Shown here in pieces: positions 2,225 through 43,272 of a stretch of 44,313 nt of DNA (position 1 is the stretch's first letter; each line of letters starts with the position of its first letter). The stretch is from Roseomonas sp. GTDB taxonomy: Bacteria > Pseudomonadota > Alphaproteobacteria > Acetobacterales > Acetobacteraceae. The notes under the pieces were generated by a model. That model did no database searches. It was given only the letters and a program-made list of their open reading frames with translations, and had not been told where the DNA came from. Made by a program: the position numbers and the translations under genes. The stretch lies in assembly GCA_020250005.1 (NCBI GenBank), contig JADCES010000196.1, forward strand, positions 1-44,313, given 5' to 3'.

Positions 2225-3181
2225 ATGGCCTCTGCCAAGCCGACCCTTCAGCTTCTGCTCGCCGGCCCGCGCGGCTTTTGCGCCGGCGTGGACCGCGCCA
2301 TCAAGATTGTCGAGGAAGCGCTGAAACGCCACGGCGCGCCAGTCTATGTGCGGCATGAGATTGTCCATAACCGCTTCGTGGTGGAAAGTCTGGAAAAGCA
2401 GGGCGCGATTTTCGTCGAGGAACTAAGTGAAATCCCCGATGACGGCCAGCCCGTGGTGTTTTCCGCCCATGGCGTGCCGAAATCCGTCCCGGCCGAGGCA
2501 GCGCAGCGCATGATGTTTGCGCTGGACGCCACCTGCCCGCTGGTGAGCAAGGTGCATCGCGAAGCCGAACGCCATCATGAACATGGCCGTCATCTTTTCC
2601 TTATTGGCCATGCCGGCCATCCGGAGGTGATCGGCACCATGGGCCAATTGCCCGAAGGTGCCGTGACCCTGGTGCAGGATGCGGCGGATGCGGAAAGCGT
2701 GGCAGCGCCTGAGGGCGCCACACTCGCCTACACAACCCAAACCACGCTTTCCGTGGATGATACGGCTGAGATCATCAGCATCCTGCAACGGCGCTTTCCC
2801 GACATTCGCGGCCCGGCCAAGGAAGATATCTGCTACGCCACCACCAATCGCCAGGCGGCAGTGAAGGCGATTGCCGCACGGTCCGATCTGGTGGTGGTGG
2901 TGGGCGCGCCCAATTCATCCAATAGCCAACGCCTGCGCGAAGTGGCGGAGCGCAGCGGCGCGCGCCGCGCAGTGATGGTGCAGCGCGGTGCTGATCTTGA
3001 TCTTGCGCTGGTGCAGGGCTGCAAGACCGTAGGCGTGACCGCCGGTGCCAGCGCGCCCGAAGTGCTGGTGGAAGAAGTACTTGCCCGGCTTCGTGAAGCC
3101 TATGCGCTGGAAATCGAAGAAGTGGTGGTGGCCGTAGAACAAATCACCTTCCGCCTGCCGCGCGGGCTCGCCGCCGAATAA
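2225..3181 (+). CDS. ispH: 4-hydroxy-3-methylbut-2-enyl diphosphate reductase (IspH/LytB)
   Basis: Last step of the MEP isoprenoid pathway: the [4Fe-4S] enzyme reduces HMBPP to IPP and DMAPP in the cytosol. The 318-residue protein has the three cluster cysteines in family context: C19 ([13 protein letters not shown]), C104 ([10 protein letters not shown]) and C203 ([10 protein letters not shown]). The GHPEVIGT motif with the proton-relay Glu134, TQTTLSVDD, and [14 protein letters not shown], which binds the diphosphate, are all present. Length is normal. The ATG at 2225 gives the usual short N-terminus before [12 protein letters not shown], although no strong Shine-Dalgarno is visible. The stop overlaps the next gene's start as TAATG, so thrB is probably translationally coupled. 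Fusing isoprenoid and threonine genes in one operon is common in Alphaproteobacteria. Confidence 0.97.
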
Positions 3182-4161
3182 TGGCTGTCTATACTGAAGT
3201 TTCGGATGAGGCGCTCCGCGTCTTCCTGGCCGATTATGCGCTGGGTGAATTGCTCGCCTTTCGCGGCATTGCAGAGGGTGTCGAGAATTCCAATTACGCG
3301 CTGAAGACGGAGAGCGGCGATTTCATCCTGACGCTTTATGAAAAGCGCGTGGACCCGGCGGAGCTGCCCTATTTCCTTGGCCTGATGGAACATCTGGCCG
3401 AGCGCGGCATGGCCTGCCCGACGCCGGTGCATGGGCGCGATGGCGCGGCCTTGCGCGAATTGGCGGGGCGGCCGGCGGCGATTGTCACCTTTCTGCCGGG
3501 TGTTTGGCCGCGCCGCGTGCGGGCGGAACATTGCGCGCCTCTGGGCAGGGCCTTGGCGGAGATGCATTTGGCCGGGGCAGGGTTTGCGATGCGCCGGCCC
3601 AATGCGCTTGGCCCCAAGGGCTGGGCGCCCTTGCTGGATGGTTGCCGCGCGCGCGGCGATGAGGTGCAGCCCGGCCTGATTGCGGAACTTGATGGGGCGC
3701 TCACCGGCATTCTTTCCGCCTGGCCCAACGAGGGCAGCCTGCCGGTTGGGCAAATCCACGCCGATCTTTTTCCCGATAACGCATTTTTCCTGCCGGGCGC
3801 CGATGGCCAGCCGCGCGTCTCCGGCGTGATTGATTTCTATTTCGCCTGCACGGATCTTTTCGCCTATGACATCGCCGTTTGCCTGAATGCCTGGTGCTTT
3901 GAGGCGGATTATTCCTTCAACGTGACGCGCGCGCGCGCCATGCTTGGCGCCTATCGCGCCATGCGTCCCATGAGTGAGGCTGAACTGGCTGCCCTGCCGG
4001 TGCTGTGCCGCGGTGCGGCGCTGCGCTTTCTGCTGACCCGGCTATATGACTGGACGCACACACCTGAAGGCGCGCTGGTAACGCGCAAGGACCCGGTGGA
4101 ATACTTGCGGAAACTACGCTTCTTCAGCGGCGCCGAAACACTTGCGGCCTTTGGCCTGTGA
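3181..4161 (+). CDS. thrB: Homoserine kinase, ThrB type with APH-like fold
   Basis: Phosphorylates L-homoserine with ATP in threonine biosynthesis. The 326-residue protein belongs to the choline-kinase/APH-fold homoserine kinases of alpha- and some gammaproteobacteria, not the GHMP type. It starts [16 protein letters not shown] and has [20 protein letters not shown] (nucleotide-binding N-lobe, residues 33-52), the Brenner-type catalytic stretch [13 protein letters not shown] with H193 and D195, and the metal-binding D218 in [11 protein letters not shown]. It lies between ispH (1-bp TAATG overlap) and rnhA (4-bp GTGA overlap), so the three are one transcript. Length matches the family and no key motif is missing. 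Confidence 0.95.
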
Positions 4162-4619
4162 CTGGCAGTGCAGACCCGCGCCCCTTGGTCCAGATTTGGA
4201 CCGATGGCGGCTGCAAACCCAACCCCGGCCCCGGCGGCTGGGCCGCCATTCTGCGCTTTGGCGAACATGAACGGGAGCTTTCGGGCGGCGAGGCCGAGAC
4301 CACCAATAACCGCATGGAATTGACCGCGGCCTTGCGGGCGCTTGAGGCGCTGAAAAAACCCTGCCGTGTCGCCCTGCATACCGATAGTGAATATCTGCGC
4401 AATGGCATCAGCCGCTGGATCCATGGCTGGGTGCGCGCCAATTGGCGCAATGCGGCGAAGGAGCCTGTGAAGAATTTGGATTTGTGGCAGGCCATCCTGG
4501 CCGCGGCCAAGCCGCATGAGATTGAATGGCATTGGGTGCGCGGCCATGCCGGGGATCCGATGAATGAACGTGCCGATGCGCTGGCGACAGCAGCGCGGGA
4601 CGCGGCTTCGAGAGATTGA
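4158..4619 (+). CDS. rnhA: Ribonuclease HI
   Basis: Cleaves the RNA strand of RNA-DNA hybrids in the cytosol. The 153-residue protein carries the DEDD metal-binding set: D16 ([17 protein letters not shown]), E54 ([10 protein letters not shown]), D76 (LHTDSEYL) and D140 (NERADALA), with H130 in VRGHAGDP. The basic loop ([16 protein letters not shown]) that binds hybrid is also present. The start is GTG at 4158-4160, which overlaps the thrB stop as GTGA. An ATG start would lose the first strand and D16. It is the last gene of the ispH-thrB-rnhA operon; a 207-bp gap follows. Confidence 0.96.
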
Positions 4620-6728: not shown

Positions 6729-7184
6729 TCAATCCTCCTCTGGGCGCTTCCAGGTGATGAACCAGCCGACATCCCCAGGAATTCCGCCCGGCCAATCAAG
6801 GATTTGCACCTTGATCTGAAAGCCGCGTGGCGCCAATTCGCGTTCATAGAAATCATAGGCGCGCTTTGGAAAGCCGCTCAGCCTTTCCCGCCAGGCAGGA
6901 TCATGGCTGGTCATGGACCGCCCCTGATCAGGCAGCCATTCGGATGGAAAACGCATCACCAGCGCTTCCTTCTCACCAGCATCCACCGCGCGCCGCACCA
7001 GGGTGGCGATACGGTCCAAGGCGTCGGGGGCGATTTCGCGCGCCTCAAACGCTTCGCGCAACTTTTCCTGTTCCGCGCGGCGCGCTGCTGCCTCGGCACG
7101 CTCCGCGGCCTCAGCAGCGCGCTTCTTGCCGTCCACGTAATCCCAAATAGATTGAGCGCTAAAATTCTGAGTGGGTAAGGTCAT
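6729..7184 (-). CDS. Conserved-looking cytosolic protein of unknown function
   Basis: 151 residues starting at the ATG at 7182-7184, with AAAGGA-type bases upstream. Residues about 18-55 are an Ala/Glu/Arg-rich amphipathic helix, probably a coiled coil (KKRAAEAAERAEAAARRAEQ). The rest is a globular alpha/beta part with LVMRFPSEWLPDQGRSM, KRAYDFYERELAPRGFQIKV and a Trp/Gly-rich end (DWPGGIPGDVGWFITWKRP). There is no signal peptide or membrane segment. I cannot name the family. It is followed by the stress-protein gene in the same direction after an 81-bp promoter gap, and has its own CRP/FNR-type box, so a low-oxygen role is an inference. Confidence 0.7.
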   Translation of the reverse strand: MTLPTQNFSAQSIWDYVDGKKRAAEAAERAEAAARRAEQEKLREAFEAREIAPDALDRIATLVRRAVDAGEKEALVMRFPSEWLPDQGRSMTSHDPAWRERLSGFPKRAYDFYERELAPRGFQIKVQILDWPGGIPGDVGWFITWKRPEED

Positions 7185-7256: not shown

Positions 7257-8060
7257 TTATCTGCCCTCAAAACTTGGTGCGCGTTTTTCCAGCATGGCAT
7301 CCACGGCTTCGCGATGATCCCGCGTACCATGTGCCAGCGCCTGATAGGCCGCCGACATTTCAAGTAGCGTCGACAACCGCGTGTGCTGGCTTTCGCGCAG
7401 CAGCCGCTTGGTCAGCCGTACTGCTTGTGGCGGATTGCCGGCGATTTTCGCGGCAATGGCACGCGCCGCATCCAATAGTGCTTCCGGCGCCACCACCTTT
7501 GAAACCATGCCGCAGGCTAAAGCCTCGGCCGGGCCAATCGTCTCACCAGTGAGTGACAATTCCAAAGCCTTCGACATGCCAACTACTTTCGGCAGCAGAT
7601 AGGCGCCACCATCACCTGGCACGATGCCGACCTTGACGAAACTCTCGGCAAACAGCGCCTTCTCACTGGCGACGCGAATATCGCACATCAGCGCAAGGTC
7701 GAGCCCTGCACCAATCGCCGGCCCATTCACTGCCGCAATGGTTGGAATATCCAATTCATACAGCGCGAGCGGAATCAACTGAATGCCGCGACGATAGGAT
7801 TCGCGAATCTCTGCCCCAGTGCCGCCGCCGGTAATGCCGGTTTTGTCCCGCATGCCCTTCAAATCACCGCCGGCACAAAAGGCCGAACCGGCTCCGGTCA
7901 CGATGACGCAGCGGACGCTATCATCCCGCGAAAGTGTGCGGCAGGCTGCTTCCACTTCCTCACATTCCGCGCGCGTCGAGATCGCATTGCGTTTTTCAGG
8001 CCGATTGAGCGTGAGGATGACGATGCCGCCTTCACGTTCGATATTCAGAAATGGGCTCAT
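7257..8060 (-). CDS. Enoyl-CoA hydratase/isomerase (crotonase) family protein
   Basis: 267 residues, start ATG at 8058-8060 overlapping the preceding acyl-CoA dehydrogenase stop as ATGA. The protein begins MSPFLNIEREGGIVILTLNRPEKRNAIS. Crotonase oxyanion-hole segments are present: FCAGGDLKGM (61-70) and AAVNGPAIGAGLDLALMCD (109-127). Compared with classical enoyl-CoA hydratase, the first catalytic Glu (in the QPE motif) is replaced by Phe141, while Asp150 occurs in the following PGDGG turn. It may therefore be an isomerase or a hydratase with shifted chemistry. It is the last gene of the nine-gene acyl-CoA operon. Confidence 0.88.
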   Translation of the reverse strand: MSPFLNIEREGGIVILTLNRPEKRNAISTRAECEEVEAACRTLSRDDSVRCVIVTGAGSAFCAGGDLKGMRDKTGITGGGTGAEIRESYRRGIQLIPLALYELDIPTIAAVNGPAIGAGLDLALMCDIRVASEKALFAESFVKVGIVPGDGGAYLLPKVVGMSKALELSLTGETIGPAEALACGMVSKVVAPEALLDAARAIAAKIAGNPPQAVRLTKRLLRESQHTRLSTLLEMSAAYQALAHGTRDHREAVDAMLEKRAPSFEGR

Positions 8061-9067
8061 GGGGCGATTTCCTCCTCGCGCGCAGTGATGAAGGGCCAAA
8101 GGGCACCAGGCAGCGCTTGCGCTTCCTGCCCGATCCGCTTGGCCCAAAAGGCCTCGCTGCCACCTTCTTCGCGCCAGGACCAAAGCCGGCGCGTGAAATG
8201 ATGCAGCTGATGTTCTTCCGTAATGCCCATGGCGGCAAAAACCTGATGCGCAATGGCGGCGCCGCGCGTGGCGGCTTCACCCACCGTAATCTTGGCGCAA
8301 CCAATCTCAAACGCCGTTGCCGCCAGACCGCGCCGATCCACGGCACGCGCGGCAGCGGCCGCCGCCACTGAAGCCGCCGAAGTCTCCGCCGCAAAAACCG
8401 CAAGCTGCTGTTGAATGGCCTGAAAGCGCCCGATCGGTCGGCCAAATTGCTTGCGCGTATTGGCATGATCCACGGCAAGCGCCAGCGCTGCCTGCATCGC
8501 GCCCGCAATCTGTGCGGAACGCATCAACGCCGTGCACAACAAACCGGCTTCCGCACCCCAGCCATTGGGCAACACCGCTTCTGCGATTGGCGTACCGATC
8601 GCGCGCGCATGATCCCGCGCCTCATGGCCGATATTGCCGCCTGTTTCCCATTCAAGCGCTGCTGCCGGGTAAAGCGCGATGCGCGCGCCATCCAAAAGCG
8701 CGACATGGCCCGCATGGCGCCCCCAGGGAATGGCGCCGTTGCGCGCACCAAAACTCAGCGCGCCTTCGGGCGCCGTAATGCCCGCCGCTGCCAGCAACGC
8801 GCTGCCGAAAATACTTTCCGCCAGCGGTATGGGCGCGGCATGCCGCCCCAGCACTTCCAGCAAGGGTGCGACATCCGCAAAGCCAAGGCCGACACCGCCG
8901 GCTGCTTCCGGCACAAGCGCGCCATTCAGGCCAAGTGCCGCCATGGCATCCCAGGTGGCAGCGGGCCAGTCCCCAGCTTCAACCGCGCGCAGCACCGCGA
9001 CATCCGCCGCATCCGTCAGCGCACGATCAGCCTGTTCTGCGAGTTCTGTTGCGATTTCGCTTGCCAT
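8057..9067 (-). CDS. Acyl-CoA dehydrogenase family protein, short (partner) subunit
   Basis: 336 residues from the ATG at 9065-9067, beginning MASEIATELAEQADRALTDA. It starts 1 bp after the stop of the longer acyl-CoA dehydrogenase and overlaps the hydratase by 4 bp. The helical N-domain (MAALGLNGALVPEAAGGVGL) and C-terminal helices (FEIGCAKITVGEAATRGAAI, then HQVFAAMGITEEHQLHHFTR) are typical of the family. The middle beta domain is shortened and the usual TEPxxGSD flavin-side motif is absent. Short plus long tandem pairs form alpha2-beta2 heterotetramers in actinobacterial steroid side-chain catabolism (FadE28/29 type); I infer the same here. Confidence 0.88.
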   Translation of the reverse strand: MASEIATELAEQADRALTDAADVAVLRAVEAGDWPAATWDAMAALGLNGALVPEAAGGVGLGFADVAPLLEVLGRHAAPIPLAESIFGSALLAAAGITAPEGALSFGARNGAIPWGRHAGHVALLDGARIALYPAAALEWETGGNIGHEARDHARAIGTPIAEAVLPNGWGAEAGLLCTALMRSAQIAGAMQAALALAVDHANTRKQFGRPIGRFQAIQQQLAVFAAETSAASVAAAAAARAVDRRGLAATAFEIGCAKITVGEAATRGAAIAHQVFAAMGITEEHQLHHFTRRLWSWREEGGSEAFWAKRIGQEAQALPGALWPFITAREEEIAP

Positions 9068-9068
9068 A

Positions 9069-10208
9069 TCAGCGCAGCCCCAATTCACGCGCGATAATGC
9101 CGCGCATGATTTCCCGCGTGCCACCGCGCAAGGAGAAGGTCGGCACAATCTGCGTCAGATAGGCGTGCATGCGGCGCATATCCTCTGGCATGTCTTCGGT
9201 CGCGATCAGATCACGCACCACATTCGGCAAGGCCTGTTCGAAATCATTGCCTAGATCCTTGACCAGCGCCGCTTGCCGCACCGGGTCCTGCCCATCTTCC
9301 AACATGCCAGCCACTGCGACTGACATATTGCGTAGAGCCCAAAGCCGCGCGACTTGCCGGCCCAGTGCAGGCGTCGCCGCGCCATCCTGCCTCAACGTCG
9401 TCATCGCCGCTTCCAACAAAGGATGTGATGACAAATACCGATCCGGTCCGCTGCGTTCAAACGCCAATTCGCTGGTGGCCTGCGCCCAACCGGCGCCTTC
9501 CTGGCCGACCAGCGCATCTTCCGGCAGCATCACATCATCAAAGGTGATTTCATTGAAGCCCTTCTCACCGACCAGGTCGCGGATCGGGCGAATATGCACG
9601 CCAGGCGCGCGCAAATTGACCAGCACTTGTGAAAGCCCGATATGCCGCGCGCCGCCTTCAGGTGCGGGAGAGGTGCGCACCAGCGCAATCATCCAATCGC
9701 AAAGATGCCCGAAGGTCGTCCAGATTTTGCGGCCATTCAGCTTCCAGCCGCCATCCACCTTTTCTGCCTTGGTGCGGAGTGACGCGAGATCACTGCCCGA
9801 ATCAGGTTCCGACAAGCCGATGCAAAACGCGTATTCGCCACTGGCGATTCGCGGCAGGAAATGGCGCTTCTGTTCTTCCGTACCAAGCCGCAGGATCAGC
9901 GGGCCGGATTGCCGATCCCCGATCCAATGCGCGCCCACCGGCGCACCGGCAGCAAGCATTTCTTCCAGCACAATATTGCGTTCCAGAAAGCTTTTCTCGC
10001 CCCCGCCATAGTCGCGCGGCCAACACATGCCAATCCAGCCCTTGGCGCCAACCGCGCGGGTGAAATTCCGGTCAAACCCCATCCAGGATCGGGCGCGGAT
10101 TTCCGGCGTGAAATTTGGCGCATGTTCCGCCAAAAATGCACGCACTTCCGCACGTAGCGCCGCAGCGCCATCCGGCGCATCACGCAGATCAAAACGAAGC
10201 TTAGCCAT
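9069..10208 (-). CDS. Acyl-CoA dehydrogenase family protein, long subunit
   Basis: FAD flavoprotein that introduces the alpha-beta double bond into an acyl-CoA. 379 residues starting MAKLRFDLRDAPDGAAALRA. It has the helical N-domain ending in WPRDYGGGEKSFLER, the beta-domain motif IGLSEPDSGSDLASLRTKAE, KLNGRKIWTTFGHLCDW, and a C-terminal end with the usual FSLRGGTREIMRGIIARELG. The closing GGTREIMR helix is a hallmark of the family. It precedes the short dehydrogenase subunit by 1 bp and follows the CoA-transferase by 12 bp, so the two dehydrogenases are probably one enzyme. Confidence 0.93.
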   Translation of the reverse strand: MAKLRFDLRDAPDGAAALRAEVRAFLAEHAPNFTPEIRARSWMGFDRNFTRAVGAKGWIGMCWPRDYGGGEKSFLERNIVLEEMLAAGAPVGAHWIGDRQSGPLILRLGTEEQKRHFLPRIASGEYAFCIGLSEPDSGSDLASLRTKAEKVDGGWKLNGRKIWTTFGHLCDWMIALVRTSPAPEGGARHIGLSQVLVNLRAPGVHIRPIRDLVGEKGFNEITFDDVMLPEDALVGQEGAGWAQATSELAFERSGPDRYLSSHPLLEAAMTTLRQDGAATPALGRQVARLWALRNMSVAVAGMLEDGQDPVRQAALVKDLGNDFEQALPNVVRDLIATEDMPEDMRRMHAYLTQIVPTFSLRGGTREIMRGIIARELGLR

Positions 10209-10220
10209 GGCGCAGCCCCC

Positions 10221-11447
10221 TTACAAGACGCCGGCGGCGCGCGCCGCAGCGATTTCTTCTTCCGTCATATCCGCAAACTCACGCAGCACTGCATCCGTAT
10301 GCTCACCAGGCGCCGGAATACCATAGCGGTAGGTCACCGGCGTCGCGGTAAGATGGAGCGGCGATGCCGGCACGCGCACGCGCCCACCGGCATGATGCGG
10401 CACTTCCACGATCAGCCCACGCGCCTTGGTATGCGGATCGGCTTCGACATCGGCGGCCGTATTGATGGGGCCGGAGGTGATCTTGGCATCCTCCAAAATC
10501 GCCAACCATTCAGCCCTTGGCCTTCGGCGCAGCACATCATTCATCATGCCAAGCAGCAAATCGCGATTGGCCGCGCGATCACGCGCACGGCGGAAGCGCT
10601 CATCCTCGGCCCATTCCGCATGGCCCAGCGCAGCCGCCAGCCGGGTAAATTCGCGGTCATTCAAAACGCCAATGACGAATTTCGCGTCCGAGCCCTGGAA
10701 CACGCCATAAGGCACCGCCACAACCGCATCATTGCCGGTACGCTGCATGAGCTTGCCGGCATTGAGCCAGGATGCCATTGGCGCCTGCATCAATGACACC
10801 ATGGTCTCATAAAGCGAGACTTCGCAATATTGCCCTTCGCCGGTCTGATCGCGATGGCGTAGCGCGGCAAGGATGGAAACTGTCGCGGCAAAGCCCGTGA
10901 ACATATCCGCAACCGGCACGCCAACGCGCTGCGGGCCGCCGCCTGGTTTGCCATCAGCCTCACCGGTCACTTCCATCAACCCAGCCATTGCTTGCGCGAC
11001 AAAATCATAGCCCGAGCGATGCGCATAAGGCCCGTCCTGACCAAAGCCCGTGACCGAACAATAGATCAGCCGCGGATTAATGGCGCGCAAATCCTCATAA
11101 CCCAACCCGTAGCGTGCCAGTGTGCCTGTACGGAAATTCTCAATCAGCACATCCGCCTTCGCCACTACGCGCTTCAGAATGGCGGCACCTTCGGCTTGCG
11201 TGAAATCCAGGCTGAGGGAGCGCTTGTTCCGATTGAGCGAGACGAAATAGGTGCTGTCATCACTGCCGGCGACAAAAGGCGGGCCAAGGGCGCGCAGATC
11301 ATCACCATTGCCTTGGCGTTCCAGCTTGACGATTTCCGCCCCCAAATCGCCCAGCATTTGCGCGCAAAGCGGGCCGGCAACCACGCGGGTCAGGTCAATC
11401 ACACGAAGGCCCGTGAGTGCGCTGGGCTTTGGGGGTTCTGTCATCAT
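10221..11447 (-). CDS. Class III CoA-transferase (CaiB/BaiF family)
   Basis: Moves CoA between an acyl-CoA and a free acid. 408 residues; two adjacent ATGs (11445-11447 and 11442-11444) are possible starts. Family hallmarks: LTGLRVIDLTRVVAGPLCAQ (11-30), MLGDLGAEIVKLE, YFVSLNRNKRSLSLDF, ADVLIENFRTGTLARYGLG, and the catalytic Asp in VADMFTGFAA (D181 by alignment to the Asp169 of formyl-CoA transferase). It follows the acyl-CoA synthetase with a 3-bp gap. It offers an ATP-free way of activating the substrate, or may recycle CoA from the end product. Confidence 0.93.
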   Translation of the reverse strand: MMTEPPKPSALTGLRVIDLTRVVAGPLCAQMLGDLGAEIVKLERQGNGDDLRALGPPFVAGSDDSTYFVSLNRNKRSLSLDFTQAEGAAILKRVVAKADVLIENFRTGTLARYGLGYEDLRAINPRLIYCSVTGFGQDGPYAHRSGYDFVAQAMAGLMEVTGEADGKPGGGPQRVGVPVADMFTGFAATVSILAALRHRDQTGEGQYCEVSLYETMVSLMQAPMASWLNAGKLMQRTGNDAVVAVPYGVFQGSDAKFVIGVLNDREFTRLAAALGHAEWAEDERFRRARDRAANRDLLLGMMNDVLRRRPRAEWLAILEDAKITSGPINTAADVEADPHTKARGLIVEVPHHAGGRVRVPASPLHLTATPVTYRYGIPAPGEHTDAVLREFADMTEEEIAAARAAGVL

Positions 11448-11450
11448 GCC

Positions 11451-13061
11451 TCAGCCACCGCGCACCCGGGTGCGCAATTCGAATTTCTGGATTTTGCCTG
11501 TTGCGGTTTTGGGTAGCGGGCCGAAGGTGATGTGGCGCGGCACCTTATACCCCGCCAGATTGGCGCGGCAGAAGGCAATGATGCCATCGCGGTTTTCCGC
11601 CGCCCCTGGCTTCAAGGTGATGAAGGCATGTGGCACTTCGCCCCATTTTTCATCCGGATGCGCCACCACGGCGGCTTCCATCACATCCGGGTGGCGATAG
11701 AGCGCTTCTTCCACTTCCAGGCTGCTGATGTTTTCCCCGCCCGAGATCACAATATCCTTGGCGCGGTCCTTCACTTCGATATAGCCATCCGGGTGCAGCA
11801 CCCCAAGATCACCGGTGCGGAACCAGCCATCCACAAAAACCGCAGCATTGGCCTTGGGGTTGCGCAAATAGCCCTTCATCACGGTATTGCCGCGAATGGC
11901 AATCTCGCCAATCGTCGCACCATCGGCCGGCACTGCCGCACCCGTTTCGGTATTGATCACGGTGGCTTCTTCCAGCGTCGGTAAGGCCACACCCTGCCGT
12001 GCCATGAAGGCGGCTTTTTCCGAAAGCGGCAGATCATGCAAGCCAGGCTGCCAGGCACATAGCAGCGAAGGGCCATAGCATTCCGTCAGCCCATAAAGAT
12101 GTGTGACATCAAATCCGAGATTCTCCATCGCCGCGATCACCGGCGATGGCGGTGCGGCACCACCGGTCGCGATTCCAACACGATGCGCGAAGCTGCGGCG
12201 TTGATCTTCCGGCGCATGGATCAGCATGGTCAGCACCACCGGTGCGGCACAGAGATGCGTGACGCCATGTTCGGCAATCAGCGCGAAAATCCGCGCCGGT
12301 TCAACACGGCGCAGGCAGACATGCGTGCCACCTTGCAGCGTGACCGCCCAGCTATAGGTCCAGCCATTGCAGTGAAACATGGGCAGCGTCCAGAGATAGA
12401 TGCTTTGCGCCGTCAACCCAAAAGATAGCGCATTGCCGCAGGCATTCAGATAGGCGCCGCGATGATGCGCAACCACGCCCTTGGGATCACCCGTGGTGCC
12501 AGAGGTATAGGAAAGCGAAATGGCCGCCCATTCATCTGACGGCGGCGTCACAGGAAAGGTGGGATCACTGCCTGCAATGAATTCCTCATAAGGTGTCGCT
12601 TCAATCGCGGCGCCACCTGGGCCTTCAGGATCATCGATGATAATGACGCGCGGCGGGTTTTCCATCCCGTCCAAGGCTGCATTCGTCAGCGCGGCAAATT
12701 CACGGTCCAGCAGCAGGATTTTCGCGCCCGAATGGCCCAGGATGAAGCGCACTGTCGCTGCATCCAGCCGCGTATTGATGGGGCAAAGCACCGCATGTGC
12801 CATCGGCACGCCATTATGCGCTTCCAGCATTTCCGGAATATTCGGCAGTAGTGCGGCCACCACATCGCCCGGCGCAATGCCGGCATCGCGCAAGGCCGAA
12901 GCCAGGCGCCGACTGCGTTCCAGAAACTGCGCATAGGTGACGCGCCTGGCGCCATGAATGATAGCGATACGCTTGCCCCAGATATGCGCCGCACGCGGCA
13001 GGAAGGAAACCGGCGAAAGCGCCACATGATTGGCGTCGGTTTTCGGCAAATCATCCTGCAT
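11451..13061 (-). CDS. Acyl-CoA synthetase (AMP-forming), LvaE-like by context
   Basis: Activates a carboxylic acid to acyl-CoA through an acyl-adenylate. 536 residues beginning MQDDLPKTDANHVALSPVSF. The ANL-superfamily motifs are complete: SYTSGTTGDPKGVV (A3, 184-197), the LYGLTECYGP segment (A5), WFRTGDLGVLHPDGYIEVKD (A7), DIVISGGENISSLEVEEAL (hinge, A8) and PKTATGKIQKFEL with K523 as the adenylation lysine. Size and motifs fit medium- or short-chain acyl-CoA synthetases. Its place next to the DUF6285/APH-kinase pair mirrors lvaE in the P. putida levulinate operon, which suggests a 4-keto or 4-hydroxy acid substrate. Confidence 0.93.
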   Translation of the reverse strand: MQDDLPKTDANHVALSPVSFLPRAAHIWGKRIAIIHGARRVTYAQFLERSRRLASALRDAGIAPGDVVAALLPNIPEMLEAHNGVPMAHAVLCPINTRLDAATVRFILGHSGAKILLLDREFAALTNAALDGMENPPRVIIIDDPEGPGGAAIEATPYEEFIAGSDPTFPVTPPSDEWAAISLSYTSGTTGDPKGVVAHHRGAYLNACGNALSFGLTAQSIYLWTLPMFHCNGWTYSWAVTLQGGTHVCLRRVEPARIFALIAEHGVTHLCAAPVVLTMLIHAPEDQRRSFAHRVGIATGGAAPPSPVIAAMENLGFDVTHLYGLTECYGPSLLCAWQPGLHDLPLSEKAAFMARQGVALPTLEEATVINTETGAAVPADGATIGEIAIRGNTVMKGYLRNPKANAAVFVDGWFRTGDLGVLHPDGYIEVKDRAKDIVISGGENISSLEVEEALYRHPDVMEAAVVAHPDEKWGEVPHAFITLKPGAAENRDGIIAFCRANLAGYKVPRHITFGPLPKTATGKIQKFELRTRVRGG

Positions 13062-13064
13062 GCT

Positions 13065-13424
13065 TCAACCCTTTCCCAAAACCCGCGGCGCGCTGATGGC
13101 GCAACGCATCCGTGCTGCCTTTCGCAACATCGCTGCTACTTCCGCGTGATTCGCACTGCCTGGATCAAAGGCGCCCGCGCGAATAGCAGCAGCCAAGGCA
13201 CGGTCCGGCGCGTCAGCAGCACCGGTCAGGCGCTGCATGGAGGCGCGTGTTGCTGCCACCCAGGCATCCTCCTGCGAAGCCTCTCGCGCCGCAATCGCCA
13301 TGGCATTGGCGATCATGCGCGCGGTGAAGGCATCCGTGCCGGCAAGCTTGGGCAGGATCTCTTGCAACAGCGCCTCACGCGCCGTGGCCAATAGGCCTGC
13401 GCCCTCCGGGGCTTCACGCTGCAT
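13065..13424 (-). CDS. DUF6285-type small protein (LvaB-like partner of the kinase)
   Basis: 119 residues, all-helical, beginning MQREAPEGAGLLATAREALL, with LPKLAGTDAFTARMIANAMAIAARE as the most characteristic stretch. I recognise it as the DUF6285 type that travels with APH-fold kinases. In the P. putida levulinate pathway the small protein LvaB is required together with the kinase LvaA. Its start overlaps the end of the kinase gene by 11 bp (13414-13424), consistent with two subunits made in equal amounts. No catalytic residues are evident, which fits a structural partner. The family call is from memory. Confidence 0.78.
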   Translation of the reverse strand: MQREAPEGAGLLATAREALLQEILPKLAGTDAFTARMIANAMAIAAREASQEDAWVAATRASMQRLTGAADAPDRALAAAIRAGAFDPGSANHAEVAAMLRKAARMRCAISAPRVLGKG

Positions 13425-14421
13425 CGGGCACCCCCGTCATGTTCAGGATTTCCCATTCAAGCTCCGGCACAATATGGCCGGTCAGTGCCAGTTCCAGGCT
13501 GGTTTCCTTGCCAGACAAGTGCCGCGCGGCTTGGTCAATCGCAATCACCGCCCAGCGGATATGCGCCGCTAATTCCCACCAGGTCACACGCGCCGCATCC
13601 ACGGCATACCCGGCTTCCGCGGCATAGCCGGCGTAGAGTGCATCTCGCGCACCAATGCCGCCTGCCTCAAAAGCGCTGCCGAAGCGCCAGCATTTGGCGC
13701 AGAACCAGCCGAGGTCAGCATGCGGTTCGCCCCAGGCAGCGAATTCCCAATCCAACACGGCTGTCACACCAGTATCTGACAACATCAGATTGCCGGTGCG
13801 GAAATCATTATGGTTGAGCACAGGCGGCAGGGGCGGCGGCGCGGTGCGTTCCAAATGGCGCAAGCCCCATTCCAAAACGGGGCGCGGTAGCGCTTGCCGG
13901 TCCAGCGCGCGGCGTTGTTCAGCCACAAAGGCCAAGCAGGCATCATCGGGCGGCGCGCCCAAAAATGCCAAATCCGCGCGCGGCGGCGTGATGCGATGAA
14001 TGCGTGCCAATTCGCGCCCAAGCGCCCGCACTGCTGCATCCCGCCCACCGCAAAGTGTTTCGCTTTTCACCACGCGATACCCCGCCGCAATGCCCTGCAC
14101 GCGACGCATGATGAAGAACGGCGCGCCCAGAATGCCGGTATCCTCACACAGATAAAGCGGTTCCGGCACTGTCACGCCCGCGGCAAAAGACGCCTTCAAC
14201 AGTGCGAATTCTGCCGTGCGCGGCAGGGAAACCGCCAAGGTCGCCGCATTATCGGTGCGTAGCACCCAGGCCTCATCGCGCCCGGCCAACGTCACATCCA
14301 AAGCCCAATTTTGCTGAATGGCTCCACCGGAAAGCAAGGCCATGGCGCCAAGTTCAAGATCAGCCGCGCCGGTTGCCCCGCGCAGCCAATCCTTCAGTTT
14401 TGCGCGCCGCGCCTCATCCAT
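13414..14421 (-). CDS. APH-fold kinase (LvaA-like 4-hydroxyacyl-CoA kinase by context)
   Basis: 335 residues from the ATG at 14419-14421 (MDEARRAKLKDWLRG), overlapping the upstream dehydrogenase gene by 8 bp. Kinase features: nucleotide loop LSGGAIQQNWALDV (30-43), a VLRTD stretch around the expected lysine position with Arg instead of Lys, IMRRVQGIAAG, the Brenner motif NHNDFRTGNLML with D206, and the metal-binding D224 in AVLDWEFAAWG. This subgroup is related to human ACAD10/ACAD11 N-domains and to LvaA. In those systems it phosphorylates the 4-hydroxyl of a hydroxyacyl-CoA so that a dehydrogenase-fold enzyme can eliminate phosphate. Adjacent dehydrogenase and DUF6285 genes make that role far likelier than antibiotic resistance. 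Confidence 0.88.
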   Translation of the reverse strand: MDEARRAKLKDWLRGATGAADLELGAMALLSGGAIQQNWALDVTLAGRDEAWVLRTDNAATLAVSLPRTAEFALLKASFAAGVTVPEPLYLCEDTGILGAPFFIMRRVQGIAAGYRVVKSETLCGGRDAAVRALGRELARIHRITPPRADLAFLGAPPDDACLAFVAEQRRALDRQALPRPVLEWGLRHLERTAPPPLPPVLNHNDFRTGNLMLSDTGVTAVLDWEFAAWGEPHADLGWFCAKCWRFGSAFEAGGIGARDALYAGYAAEAGYAVDAARVTWWELAAHIRWAVIAIDQAARHLSGKETSLELALTGHIVPELEWEILNMTGVPDAA

Positions 14422-15625
14422 GCTTGGGCGGACCCCAGGCGAAGAATCCAGAACCCTCCGCCCGCAAGGTATTGGCCAGCACCATGCGATGCACTTCGGA
14501 TGCGCCATCCACCAGACGCGCCTGGCGGGCATAGCGATACATCCATTCAATCACCGTATCCTTGGAATAGCCGCGCGCGCCCAGCAATTGCAGCGCCGTA
14601 TCCACGGATTTTTGCAAAGCATCCGCGACCACGATCTTCGCCATGGAAACTTCTTTCCGCGCGAAGCCGCCCTGGTCCAGAATCCAGGCCGCCTTCATGG
14701 TCAGCAGCCGGCCGATTTCAATTTCCATCGCCGCCTGGCCCACCAGGCCCTGCACGCTTTCACGATCAATCAGCTTCATGCCGAAGGAATCACGCTGCGC
14801 GATGCGTTCCATGGCGATTTCCAAAGCACGCCGAGACAAGCCCAGCCAGCGCATGCAATGCGTCAACCGTGCGACGCCAAGGCGCATTTGCGTGAGCTTC
14901 AGCCCATCGCCTTCGCTCATCAGCAAATGTTCATTCGGGACTTCCAGCCCGTCGAATTCCAACTCGCAATGCCCGCCATGTTCTTCCGGCCCCATGATCG
15001 GGATGCGCCGCACAATCTTCCAGCCCGGCTGATCGGCGCTGAACAGAAAAGCGGAAAGCCCCTTGCGCGGATCATCCGATGTGCGCGCCAGAATAATAAA
15101 AATCTTCGCATTGCCGGCACCGGTGATGAACCACTTGCGCCCGGTGATGCGCCAGCGATCATTGCCGACGCGTTCCGCCTTGGTATAGGTCAGATTGGGG
15201 TCGGAACCGCAGCCATCCGGTTCCGTCATGGCGAAGGCGGATTGCACATCGCCATTCACAATCGGCTGCAACCAGCGCGGCTTCATCGCTTCCGGCAAAA
15301 CGCGATCCAGGATCATCATATTGCCGTCATCCGGCGCGGCGCTATTGAACACCACGGGCCCGAAGATGGAGCGGTTCATTTCCTCATAACAAGCGGCCAT
15401 GCCAATGCGTGGCAATTCCTGACCGCCCAGGCGCTTTGGCATTTGCAGCGCCCAAAGCCCTTCTGCCTTCGCGGCCTTGCGCATTTCCGCCAGCACATGC
15501 GGCGCGATGTTTTCATGCTCATCGAAATTCGCGCGGTCGGATTCCAGCGGAATCAGCTTTTCATCCACGAAGCGGCGAATGCGCCGGCGCATATCATCAA
15601 TTTCGGGGGGCAGCGTGAATTCCAT
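14414..15625 (-). CDS. Acyl-CoA dehydrogenase family protein (LvaC/ACAD11-like by context)
   Basis: 403 residues beginning MEFTLPPEIDDMRRRIRRF. Family motifs: AFAMTEPDGCGSDPNLTYTK (129-148), KWFITGAGNAKIFIILART, a full central beta domain, the QLLGARGYSKDTVIEWMYR helix and VDGASEVHRMVLANTL at the C-terminus. It lies directly before the APH-fold kinase (8-bp overlap), as ACAD and kinase modules are fused in human ACAD10/11 and adjacent in lvaA/lvaC. I infer that it acts on the 4-phospho-acyl-CoA made by the kinase rather than being a plain desaturase. It is distinct in sequence from the other two dehydrogenases of the operon. Confidence 0.93.
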   Translation of the reverse strand: MEFTLPPEIDDMRRRIRRFVDEKLIPLESDRANFDEHENIAPHVLAEMRKAAKAEGLWALQMPKRLGGQELPRIGMAACYEEMNRSIFGPVVFNSAAPDDGNMMILDRVLPEAMKPRWLQPIVNGDVQSAFAMTEPDGCGSDPNLTYTKAERVGNDRWRITGRKWFITGAGNAKIFIILARTSDDPRKGLSAFLFSADQPGWKIVRRIPIMGPEEHGGHCELEFDGLEVPNEHLLMSEGDGLKLTQMRLGVARLTHCMRWLGLSRRALEIAMERIAQRDSFGMKLIDRESVQGLVGQAAMEIEIGRLLTMKAAWILDQGGFARKEVSMAKIVVADALQKSVDTALQLLGARGYSKDTVIEWMYRYARQARLVDGASEVHRMVLANTLRAEGSGFFAWGPPKHG

Positions 15626-15636
15626 GGCGGCAAAAC

Positions 15637-16404
15637 CTAAAGCGGGTTGATCGAATGGCCGCCGTCCACTGTCACCACCGCGCCGGTCATATGCACCCCG
15701 GCTTCGGAAGTGAGCAGCAATAGCGGCCCGGTAAGGTCCTCGGCAGCGCCCAGCCGGCGCTGCGGTATGCGTTTGATCATCGCCTGCCCGGAATCGGAGG
15801 CGAAGTAATCGCGGTTGATATCAGTGGCGATATAGCCAGGCGCAATCGCATTCACGCGAATGCCATGCCGCGCCCATTCCACCGCCAAATGGCGCGTCAT
15901 GTGCAAAAGCCCGGCCTTTGCGGCGGTATAGCCGACCACGCCGGGAATGATGCGCTCCCCAAGGACCGAGGCGATATTCACCACCACGCCCGGGCGCTTC
16001 GCCGCCACCAGGCGCTTGGCGGCTTCCTGCGCCACCAGAAAACAGCCGCGCAGATTCACATCCAGCACGGCATCCCAGTCTTCCGCGCTTTGTTGCAAGG
16101 CTGGCTTGGTCACGGCGATGCCGGCATTGTTGACCAGAATATCGCAGGGCGCGCCGAAGGCGGCTTCCGCGGCGGCAAAGGCGGGTGCGATGCTCTCCGG
16201 CGCTGTCACATCCAAGGGCACGGATACCGCGCGCGCACCCAATTCGGCCGCCAGCGCGGCGGTTGCGGCTTCCCGCCGTGCGGCCAGCGCCACGGAAGCC
16301 CCGGCGCCATGCAGCACACGCGCGAAATGCGCGCCCAAAACGCCGGACGCACCAGTCACCAGCGCCACGCGCCCCTGCAACGAGAACAATCCAGCAATAT
16401 CCAC
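15637..16404 (-). CDS. Short-chain dehydrogenase/reductase (LvaD-like by context)
   Basis: 255 residues from a GTG start (16402-16404) with GGGAGG 8-9 bases upstream; there is no ATG suited to the fold, and the upstream extension is not protein-like. The Rossmann motif reads TGASGVLG (17-24), with Val at a usually Gly position. NNAG (92-95), S146 in NIASVLGE and Y159/K163 in VGYTAAKAG complete the SDR catalytic set. It is the first gene of the operon, 11 bp before the dehydrogenase. In the lva pathway an SDR reduces the 4-keto-acyl-CoA to 4-hydroxy. A 3-hydroxyacyl-CoA dehydrogenase role is the alternative. Confidence 0.88.
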   Translation of the reverse strand: MDIAGLFSLQGRVALVTGASGVLGAHFARVLHGAGASVALAARREAATAALAAELGARAVSVPLDVTAPESIAPAFAAAEAAFGAPCDILVNNAGIAVTKPALQQSAEDWDAVLDVNLRGCFLVAQEAAKRLVAAKRPGVVVNIASVLGERIIPGVVGYTAAKAGLLHMTRHLAVEWARHGIRVNAIAPGYIATDINRDYFASDSGQAMIKRIPQRRLGAAEDLTGPLLLLTSEAGVHMTGAVVTVDGGHSINPL

Positions 16405-41235: not shown

Positions 41236-42207
41236 CTATTCCGCCCTGATCCCCGCCGCGCGAACCACCGTGCTCCAACGCTCCCATTCCTCAGTCACCA
41301 TTTGCGCAAATGCAGTGCGGCTGATCTGGCCGGGCTCGGCGCCGAGTTGGTGAACGCGGGCGATCACATCAGGCTGGCGCAGCACTTCATTAACCTCGGC
41401 ATGGATGCGGTCCAGCACGGGCGCGGGTGTGGCGCGCGGCGCAAAAAGCCCCCCCCAAAACATCAGGGCATGCCCAGGCACGGTTTCGGCGAAGGTCGGC
41501 ACATCGGGCATGATCGAAAGGCGCTTTGCGCTGCTGACGGCGATGGGGCGCAACTGACCGGAATCGACAAAGCTGCGGGCGGATAGCGTGCTGTCATGGG
41601 CGAAATCCACATCGCCGCGCACCAGCGCCGTCAGGGCTGGGGCATTCCCCGTATAGGGCACCAGGGTGAATTCCGTGCCCGTTTCGCGCTGGAAAAGTGT
41701 CATCGTCAAATGATTGATGGCCCCCGTGCCAGGATGGGAGACCGTCAGGCGCCCAGGCGCGCGGCGCGCGGCTTCAATCATCTGCGCGACGGTGCGGATG
41801 GGGCTATCGGGGCGGACCAGCAGCAGCATCGGCGCTTCCTGCGCCAGCACAATCGGCGCGAAATCCCGCATGGGGTCGAAGGTAGAACCCCTATTCACCA
41901 AGGGCGAGATGATGGTGGAATTCGATGTGTACATCAGCGTCATGCCATCGGGTGCCGCGCGCGCCACCTGATCGGCCGCGACCAGCGTTGCTGCGCCGGG
42001 GCGGTTTTCAACAATGAAGCTGGTGCCTGGCAGGCGTTCATTCAGCTTGCCGGCAACGAGCCGCGCCATGATGTCATTGGCCCCGCCCGGTGCGAAGCCA
42101 ACAATAAAGCGCACCTGGCGCAGCGGAAAATTCTGCGCCAAAGTGGGCGCGGCGGCGAATAGTGCTGATGCACCAAGCAAGGCGCTGCGGCGGCGAATGG
42201 CGATCAT
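41236..42207 (-). CDS. Tripartite tricarboxylate transporter receptor (Bug family), copy 1
   Basis: 323 residues from ATG 42205-42207 with GGGAGGA 6 bases upstream. Leader IRRRSALLGASALFAAAPTL followed by AQ, Tat-like. Bug-family marks: FPLRQVRFIVGFAPGGANDI (from about 27), ENRPGAATLVAADQVARAAP, SHPGTGAINHLTM, VPYTGNAPALTALVRGDVDF and VPTFAETVPG. It binds a carboxylate in the periplasm for a TctAB-type membrane transporter or for sensing. No TctA or TctB gene is in the window, so it is an orphan receptor. Substrate is not deducible. Confidence 0.93.
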   Translation of the reverse strand: MIAIRRRSALLGASALFAAAPTLAQNFPLRQVRFIVGFAPGGANDIMARLVAGKLNERLPGTSFIVENRPGAATLVAADQVARAAPDGMTLMYTSNSTIISPLVNRGSTFDPMRDFAPIVLAQEAPMLLLVRPDSPIRTVAQMIEAARRAPGRLTVSHPGTGAINHLTMTLFQRETGTEFTLVPYTGNAPALTALVRGDVDFAHDSTLSARSFVDSGQLRPIAVSSAKRLSIMPDVPTFAETVPGHALMFWGGLFAPRATPAPVLDRIHAEVNEVLRQPDVIARVHQLGAEPGQISRTAFAQMVTEEWERWSTVVRAAGIRAE

Positions 42208-42288
42208 GGTTTCCTCCCTTTGCATTTCAGGCAGGAAACCACCCTGGCAGGTTTTGGTCGAGAGGGTCTGGTGGGCCAGCCCACGGCA

Positions 42289-43272
42289 CTATTCCACACG
42301 ACCGATCCGATTCACCGCCGCTTCCACGCGCTTGAAATCGGCATCCAGAAAATCCTGGAAGGCGCGACCGTCGCGGTGGTCCAGCTCCAGCCCGGCCGCT
42401 TCAAGTTGGCGCAGCATTTCAGCGTCCTTCACAACAGCCGCGGTTGCCTGCCGCCAGGTTTCGCGTTCTGCGGCCGGTGTCGCGGTTTGGCTGAAAATGC
42501 CGACCCACAGATAAAACTCCACCTCATTAAGCCCGAGTTCCAAGGCGGTTGGCACATCCGGCAACAAGGCCACGCGGCGCCCGCCCGTGTTTACCAAGGC
42601 GCGCATTGCGCCAGAGCGGATTTGCGGCGCCGCCACAGCAGCGGTGGCAGCGGTTGCGGCGACATGCCCACCAAGCACTGCCGTCATGGCTGGGCCGCCA
42701 CCGGAATAGGGCACGTGGTTCAGTCGGAAACCGCCGGCATGCGCCAGCATTTCAAAGGGCAGGTGGATCGCGCTGTAGGGGCCGGAAGAACCGTAAGCGA
42801 TCTGCCCGGGCTGGCGCCGCGCATCCTCGGCGAAGTCCTGGAAGCTTCGCCAGGGCGCATCGGCCTTCACCACAATCATCAGGGGGTCAGCCGTCAGCAG
42901 GGCAATCGGCGCAAGGCTTGCGCGTTCAAGGGAAGCCGGGCGCTGAAACAGCGTATCCGCCGCCGGGATCGAGGAATAGGAAACATGCGCAATCACGCCG
43001 GTATAGCCATCGGGCCGCGCCGTGGCGCCGGCATTCATGCCAAGCGCACCACCGGCGCCGCCCCGGTTTTGCAGCACGACCGATTGGTTCCAATGGCGCT
43101 GCAAGGCGGCACCATAGGGCCGCGCGATCAGATCGGTTGCGCCACCGGGCGGGAAGGGCACGATGATGGTGACCGCCCGCGTGGGAAAGCCGGGCTGCTG
43201 CGCAAGTGCGGGGGATGCTGCGCCCGCCAGCGCCAAGCCAAGCGCCCCGCGGCGTGACAGGATGTGCTTCAT
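42289..43272 (-). CDS. Tripartite tricarboxylate transporter receptor (Bug family), copy 2
   Basis: 327 residues from ATG 43270-43272 with GGGGAGGAG upstream. Leader MKHILSRRGALGLALAGAAS ending PALAQ is Tat-like. Family marks: FPTRAVTIIVPFPPGGATDL, LQNRGGAGGALGMNAGATAR, YGSSGPYSAIHLPFEMLA, VPYSGGGPAMTAVLGGHV and VPTALELGLNEVEF. It is only distantly similar to the other receptor, so the pair is not a recent duplication. The gap to the next receptor is 81 bp and contains a small hairpin but no transporter gene. An upstream palindrome and promoter-like elements are listed separately. Confidence 0.93.
   Translation of the reverse strand: MKHILSRRGALGLALAGAASPALAQQPGFPTRAVTIIVPFPPGGATDLIARPYGAALQRHWNQSVVLQNRGGAGGALGMNAGATARPDGYTGVIAHVSYSSIPAADTLFQRPASLERASLAPIALLTADPLMIVVKADAPWRSFQDFAEDARRQPGQIAYGSSGPYSAIHLPFEMLAHAGGFRLNHVPYSGGGPAMTAVLGGHVAATAATAAVAAPQIRSGAMRALVNTGGRRVALLPDVPTALELGLNEVEFYLWVGIFSQTATPAAERETWRQATAAVVKDAEMLRQLEAAGLELDHRDGRAFQDFLDADFKRVEAAVNRIGRVE

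Follow-up and report, generated by a model that had tools for sequence, protein, structure and literature searches.

The closest described counterparts of the genes considered here are the levulinate (lva) operon of Pseudomonas putida, lvaABCDE(FG), and the mammalian proteins ACAD10 and ACAD11, which carry on one chain an aminoglycoside phosphotransferase (APH)-type kinase for the 4-hydroxyl and an acyl-CoA dehydrogenase (ACAD) with a catalytic Asp and an Arg/His/Arg phosphate clamp. In the sections of PMC12440821 on which we drew, D753 of mouse ACAD11 is given as the base, R626, H634 and R637 are said to hold the phosphate in a clamp obtained from molecular dynamics, and R176 and R86 of the kinase, the latter next to the alpha-C glutamate, are proposed from modelling to hold coenzyme A (CoA). 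For P. putida KT2440, the portion of PMC6692424 used here reports that LvaB binds LvaA in pulldown and is needed for growth on levulinate; it also states that in P. citronellolis a histidine phosphatase is present and lvaB is absent and, after Rand et al. (2017), that homologues of lvaABCD occur in Alpha-, Beta- and Gammaproteobacteria. Going by that portion, this kind of operon is therefore already known; the pathway is little studied and is shared in outline with mammals. We analysed a window of 44,313 nucleotides, one contig of a 4.03-Mb Roseomonas sp. genome whose host belongs to the genus of Neoroseomonas, in which five adjacent minus-strand genes (Table 1) encode a short-chain dehydrogenase/reductase (SDR; D), an ACAD (C), an APH-fold kinase (A), a DUF6285 protein (B) and an acyl-CoA synthetase (E). 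Judging from sequence comparison, this set very probably serves to degrade 4-hydroxy or 4-keto acids through phosphorylation followed by phosphate elimination, and we put the probability that it is an lva-type 4-hydroxyacid catabolic operon at about 0.82.

By homology with LvaABCDE and ACAD10/11, on which every proposed reaction is modelled, E would load a 4-oxo or 4-hydroxy acid onto CoA, D would convert 4-oxoacyl-CoA to 4-hydroxyacyl-CoA, A together with its DUF6285 partner B would phosphorylate the 4-hydroxyl, and C, through Asp373 and a clamp of Arg248, His256 and Arg259, would eliminate the phosphate to give a 2-enoyl-CoA, which could pass into beta-oxidation, possibly via the enoyl-CoA hydratase (ECH) and ACAD genes downstream. 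Such a phosphorylation-elimination sequence had been put forward in the original prediction, and we favour it because of the lva loci that contain DUF6285, the identities to one complete locus of that type, the clade of the kinase, the key residues of the ACAD and the kinase, and the linkage of C, A and B. If this is correct, a way into beta-oxidation that was recently discovered in mammals also exists in a genus of Alphaproteobacteria and beyond it. In annotated relatives these genes are named phosphotransferase, acyl-CoA dehydrogenase and DUF6285 protein, and under such generic names the pathway goes unseen.

The lva reference in this work consisted of lva-ordered loci (L223-L227 and a Stutzerimonas plasmid), the KT2440 sequences of LvaA, LvaB and LvaC standing outside the comparisons and trees. 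By Pfam, L225 is a complete lva-type locus, with a divergent PrpR_N/sigma-54 regulator, APH, DUF6285 (74.5 bits), ACAD, SDR, AMP ligase, DUF485 and a sodium:solute symporter, and its DNA matches 53 Pseudomonas and 3 Stutzerimonas plasmid records, among 137 records. The order A-DUF6285-C-D-E was found in five of the eight DUF6285 genomes of one genus in the Pseudomonas family (L223, L224, L225, L226 and L227). A Stutzerimonas stutzeri plasmid is annotated with prpR, phosphotransferase, DUF6285, histidine phosphatase, ACAD, SDR, acyl-CoA synthetase, DUF485 and cation acetate symporter, and Azotobacter salinestris with phosphotransferase, DUF6285, ACAD, SDR-type dehydrogenase, acyl-CoA synthetase and DUF485. 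The layouts of L225, Stutzerimonas and Azotobacter fit the lva description in the portion of PMC6692424 used, and from the operon structure of L225 and the Stutzerimonas plasmid, DUF6285 sits at the place of lvaB. Like the P. putida operon, the window has all five enzyme classes, the DUF6285 kinase partner and the catalytic residues, and this gene content, which had been predicted to be that of the lva enzyme core, equals that of the lvaRABCDEFG-type loci L225 and the Stutzerimonas plasmid. Identities to L225 are 46% for A, 39% for B, 42% for C, 48% for D and 61% for E, which is thus the closest of the five proteins to its counterpart; the SDR and the synthetase are counted as LvaD- and LvaE-like on these identities. 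Unlike the P. putida operon, the window has the order D-C-A-B-E instead of A-B-C-D-E and no adjoining lvaR, lvaF or lvaG, a CaiB-FadE-FadE-ECH series coming next. Both the altered order and the lack of lvaFG-type transporters had been remarked upon before, and none of these transporters was found among the 39 window open reading frames (ORFs) scanned. The cluster on plasmid pTT27 of Thermus thermophilus HB8 (L080) has D-C-A-B in the order of the window, but differs in having a histidine phosphatase past B and an AMP-binding protein before D, at 31-45% identity.

Linkage was counted in the best 80 of at least 562 confirmed relatives, which include Alphaproteobacteria, Betaproteobacteria (Pollutimonas) and Gammaproteobacteria (Marinobacter). 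C is followed by A in 73 of 76 testable loci, every A that could be tested is followed by B (69 of 69), and D stands before C in 61 of 76, so the gene arrangement is not due to chance. E was found downstream in 25 of 63 testable loci and upstream in 6 of the 80, and at least three of the four genes CaiB, FadEa, FadEb and ECH lie downstream at >50% identity in 8 of 54, the test having failed in the remaining 46; the same tail linkage is seen in the near relatives L231, L234, L236, L237 and L238. From these counts, the conserved core is D-C-A-B, while E and the tail vary. Of the five-gene module described originally, E lies outside the conserved core. The positions of the module, its overlaps (14414-14421, 8 bp, between C and A; 13414-13424, 11 bp, between A and B) and the Pfam and NCBIfam classes of its genes agree with our analysis, but the module was drawn too short, since the same-strand run in fact continues through CaiB, FadEa, FadEb and ECH down to 7257 and comprises at least nine genes.

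The D-C-A-B order also occurs on plasmids of Paroceanicella and Thermus; in Massilia, C is placed before D-A-B, and genes for a thiolase, ECH, MaoC and more ACADs surround the set. C of the window shares 86-88% identity with that of named Neoroseomonas and 97-99% with that of metagenome-assembled genomes titled Roseomonas, Rhodospirillales or Alphaproteobacteria. DUF6285 was found in 33 of 34 other genomes of the genus, the sole miss being a 78%-complete genome, in 26 of 299 Pseudomonadota genomes (the window's own counted), in 9 of 369 genomes of the class of G249 (G249 counted), taken to be Gammaproteobacteria because the G249 kinase groups with Marinobacter in the kinase tree, and in 8 of 111 genomes of the one genus assigned to the Pseudomonas family from a strong OprF match.

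The best PDB match of C is ACAD11 (2wbi, 242 bits), followed by 4hr3 (213 bits) and the short-chain ACAD 1jqi (151 bits). Residues R248, R253, H256, R259 and D373 of C align with R626, R631, H634, R637 and D753 of mouse ACAD11, the printed chain number being, by our count, one lower than that of PMC12440821. All 48 Asp-type ACADs compared (5 lva, 20 D-C-A-B, 16 ACAD11-type and 7 Massilia/Thermus) keep the R626/H634/R637/D753 set. None of the 21 ordinary ACADs, of which ten come from the genome of the window, has the full set, and at the H634 column the 21 have no His. In the structures 8v3u (D220 to A) and 8v3v (D753 to N), the changed letters align with D206 of the window kinase and D373 of C. 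An ordinary ACAD is thus ruled out, as far as residues can tell, by the Asp base and the phosphate clamp. In the ACAD tree, whose rows are matches over 70 bits, C of the D-C-A-B type forms its own clade (100), joined to C of the lva and Massilia/Thermus loci at a Shimodaira-Hasegawa-like approximate likelihood ratio (SH-aLRT) support of 89. The C of Massilia groups with lva C and is 71% identical to that of L225, and the kinase of Massilia has its place, weakly supported (89/97), with D-C-A-B kinases from Cycloclasticus and Amylibacter; because the two proteins group with different sets, this suggests that C has been exchanged between such operons. A second LvaA/C pair in the genome was also looked for; of 12 ACAD places at E <=1e-10 (the window's included), the next best is 35% identical and has Glu in the motif YEGPSEVH. 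As a separate observation, 350 of 398 Pseudomonas-family genomes (the family of G100) have an ACAD11-type ACAD at E 1e-90, and many of the 18 larger regions are without an adjoining kinase.

For the kinase, a first tree had 72 rows (64 of 66 candidates, with the short pieces from L101 and L164 left out and no L065 row among the candidates), and a second, of 69 rows, omitted ThrB, L146 and L102 as long branches. In the 69-row tree one clade of 30 rows (100/98) unites the window kinase with the five lva-ordered kinases; it lies within the half whose kinases have a DUF6285 partner, and the ACAD11-type kinases make up the other half (100/100). The proposed kinship of the kinase with both LvaA and ACAD10/11 is therefore borne out on the lva side but not on the ACAD11 side, and ACAD10/11 is not its closest model. 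D206 and N211 of the window kinase align with the catalytic D220 and N225 of ACAD11 (one row of the ACAD11 group is a gap at these columns in the residue table). The window kinase is 28% identical to mouse ACAD11, and the lva-ordered kinases are 28-30% identical to its kinase, which agrees with the 29% stated for LvaA in the part of PMC11342911 consulted. The top PDB match of the window kinase is 9o56, named aminoglycoside phosphotransferase (52 bits), followed by an entry with the deposited name putative acyl-CoA dehydrogenase (3dxp) and by ACAD11. Its four NCBIfam matches reach 19-28 bits against cut-offs of 299-390, among them capreomycin phosphotransferase (19 bits, cut-off 390), and an assignment as aminoglycoside phosphotransferase is not supported, despite the name of 9o56, with no match over a curated cut-off among the resistance families of NCBIfam, the library searched for them. 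Five APH matches were obtained in the genome; A and a ThrB-like gene are those that lie in the window.

A further comparison concerns the CoA-binding arginines and DUF6285. Like ACAD10/11, the window combines an APH-type kinase for the 4-hydroxyl with an ACAD that has the catalytic Asp and the Arg/His/Arg clamp; unlike them, it has kinase and ACAD as two genes with an 8-bp overlap, and its kinase, of the other clade, is without the two CoA arginines and is paired with a DUF6285 protein, the only PF19802 match in the genome. In the printed chain, by our count, the arginine next to the alpha-C glutamate has the number 83, and equating it with R86 is thus an assumption, while R176 fits. All 18 ACAD11-type kinases have both arginines. 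None of the 53 DUF6285-partnered kinases has the pair, and 3 of them have one of the two; the second column is a gap in 18 of the 53. No DUF6285 was found in sixteen ACAD11-type loci (15 places), seven of which extend over only 3-4 kb, and the ACAD11-type kinase of L109 has a DUF6285 gene at a distance of about 2 kb. Because the two kinase classes are two clades, this split counts as one evolutionary contrast and not as many. A mixed arrangement occurs in L069 (G072), where two DUF6285-type kinase pairs stand beside two ACAD11-type ACADs (51-53% identical to mouse ACAD11).

In-frame fusions that put the kinase ahead of DUF6285 occur in nine genomes (L093, L096, L009, L072, L073, L111, the G162 locus, and Roseococcus L269 and L270), and the fusions present in the 69-row tree fall in three places (L093/L096, L073/L111 and L072). 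The long open frames of L293 and L308 were dropped as fusions, since their kinase matches are in another frame. The 34 DUF6285 rows of the D-C-A-B kind all have Pro6, Leu11, Met37, Ala41, Ala45 and Arg47, and Arg47 is kept in 195 of 199 loci (5 of 5 lva, 71 of 71 named loci with B, 3 of 3 Thermus/Massilia/Paroceanicella and 116 of 120 others); some of these loci represent the same place. DUF6285 may complete the acyl-CoA site. More specifically, CoA might be recognized in two ways, by the kinase's own two arginines in the ACAD10/11 type and through DUF6285 (LvaB) in the LvaA type, with Arg47 and a C-terminal basic stretch binding CoA; this is a tentative proposal, which we think rather unlikely to hold. 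If it were true, it would explain why lvaB is essential in Pseudomonas and would give DUF6285 a function, and the arginine/DUF6285 split offers a cheap handle on what LvaB does. The name DUF6285 appears in no paper of the literature library searched, and a single paper there, a review, mentions levulinic acid together with Roseomonas.

Several of our results weigh against an lva-type operon. The window kinase has Ala70 and Leu163 where ACAD11 has its CoA arginines, and no match to a sodium:solute symporter (SSF), DUF485 or PrpR_N was obtained among the 39 ORFs. Furthermore, C of the window, at 42% identity, belongs to a subfamily separate from the lva-ordered C, and approximately unbiased (AU) tests did not reject placements of the D-C-A-B-type C with ACAD11 (p-AU 0.23 and 0.287); a plain LvaC assignment was dropped on account of these tests. 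The original description of the dehydrogenase as LvaC- or ACAD10/11-like is thus upheld by its key residues but not by a firm position in the tree. In addition, in the five lva-ordered loci of the Pseudomonas family, C shares 34-35% identity and 50-51% similarity with mouse ACAD11, which disagrees with the 62 and 56% identity to ACAD10 and ACAD11 given for KT2440 LvaC in the part of PMC11342911 consulted; that paper may give a similarity figure, or KT2440 may have another C. Finally, D is not beside C in 15 of 76 testable loci and E is not downstream in 38 of 63, and since D and E are often absent next to the core, a 4-oxo substrate would not be general.

It could also be that C is an ordinary FAD-dependent ACAD and that the kinase acts on something unrelated, such as a sugar or an aminoglycoside. 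Both proteins belong to large generic Pfam families, and the aminoglycoside phosphotransferase name of 9o56, although it is a name alone, points the same way. This explanation is nevertheless very improbable given the Asp in the place of the base and the complete phosphate clamp in C, the strong C-A-B linkage, and kinase matches that are far below the NCBIfam cut-offs, with 3dxp and ACAD11 next in the PDB.

The substrate leaves more room for alternatives. That it is levulinate is a guess, for which the closeness of E to its lva counterpart, the greatest among the five proteins, leaves room; longer 4-hydroxy acids or lactones are possible because lvaFG is absent among the ORFs scanned, E or D is absent in many relatives, and the CaiB-FadE-FadE-ECH tail is present. 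We see about an even chance that the chemistry is as proposed and that the natural substrate is not levulinate but a longer, branched or ring-bearing 4-hydroxy acid or gamma-lactone, whose breakdown would be finished by the nine-gene run. The tail genes follow E at distances of 3, 12 and 1 bp and with a 4-bp overlap, at least three of the four recur in the 8 relatives mentioned above, and the Massilia set has the neighbours listed earlier, all of which is consistent with a nine-gene unit, whereas the 61% identity of E speaks for levulinate, and the 46 relatives in which the tail test failed indicate that the core does not need the extension. These same 46 relatives would be expected if one transcript held two pathways, the core and a CaiB-FadEa-FadEb-ECH series that handles a dicarboxylate by CoA transfer. 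The best NCBIfam match of CaiB, a succinate-glutarate type CoA-transferase (NF052585, 377 bits, cut-off 750), and that of FadEa, PimC-like (172.5 bits, cut-off 623.85), would suit such a division; both are below their cut-offs. The 3-bp spacing between E and CaiB and the same linkage in the five near relatives argue against it, and we regard two pathways as possible, with the odds somewhat against them.

The features are listed in Table 1. The listed ORF of the SDR extends to 16608, 16404 being an internal GTG, a start taken over from the original prediction, and that of the kinase reaches 14550, beyond the start at 14421. The Pfam and NCBIfam searches with FadEb started at 9073, two residues more than from the ATG, and its NCBIfam match, IpdE2, reached 65.5 bits, below the cut-off of 450. 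The 151-aa ORF past ECH is kept there at 82-95% in the very near relatives L234, L236, L237 and L238.

Table 1. Genes of the run in the window, with kinase-DUF6285 fusions and histidine phosphatase genes at other loci
Feature	Coordinates	Strand	Evidence or remark
D: SDR oxidoreductase, LvaD-like, probable 4-oxoacyl-CoA reductase	15637..16404	-	Pfam PF13561 (adh_short_C2) 191 bits
C: atypical ACAD, probable 4-phosphoacyl-CoA phosphate-eliminating enzyme	14414..15625	-	Pfam Acyl-CoA_dh_1 124 bits
A: APH-fold kinase, lva-kinase clade	13414..14421	-	Pfam PF01636 125 bits
B: DUF6285 protein, LvaB-like kinase partner	13065..13424	-	PF19802 69.3 bits, cut-off 28.1
E: acyl-CoA synthetase, LvaE-like	11451..13061	-	Pfam AMP-binding 267 bits; NF006020 828 bits, cut-off 677
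CoA-transferase family III (CaiB type)	10221..11447	-	3 bp past E; PF02515 429 bits
FadEa: ACAD subunit	9069..10208	-	12 bp past CaiB; PF02770/PF02771
FadEb: ACAD subunit	8057..9067	-	ATG at 9067; 1 bp past FadEa; PF00441 72.8 bits
ECH: enoyl-CoA hydratase family protein	7257..8060	-	4-bp overlap with FadEb; PF00378 197 bits; NF006699 414 bits, cut-off 354
Conserved 151-aa ORF past ECH	6729..7184	-	No Pfam match at E 0.1; membership in run uncertain
Roseococcus kinase-DUF6285 fusions	L269 9199-10545; L270 6718-8082
Histidine phosphatase, examples	L080 9475-10128; L131 3448-4122; L311 4490-5251		Also L137, L143, L151, L210, L229, L287, L302, L303

A histidine phosphatase gene recurs beside such sets, with both kinase classes, and none was seen in the window. 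In Marinobacter changyiensis (L292, 12330-16940), D-C-A-B-E is followed by apparently five branched-chain-type ATP-binding cassette (ABC) transporter genes, judged from the beginnings of the proteins, which are a possible uptake system in place of lvaFG. Elsewhere in the window, two adjoining genes for TctC, the receptor of the tripartite tricarboxylate transporter, lie on the same strand at 41236-43272, about 24 kb from the set. The region at 2225-4619 is ordinary, with LytB/IspH, an APH-fold kinase gene (3181-4161), which from its neighbourhood we take to be homoserine kinase ThrB, and RNase H.

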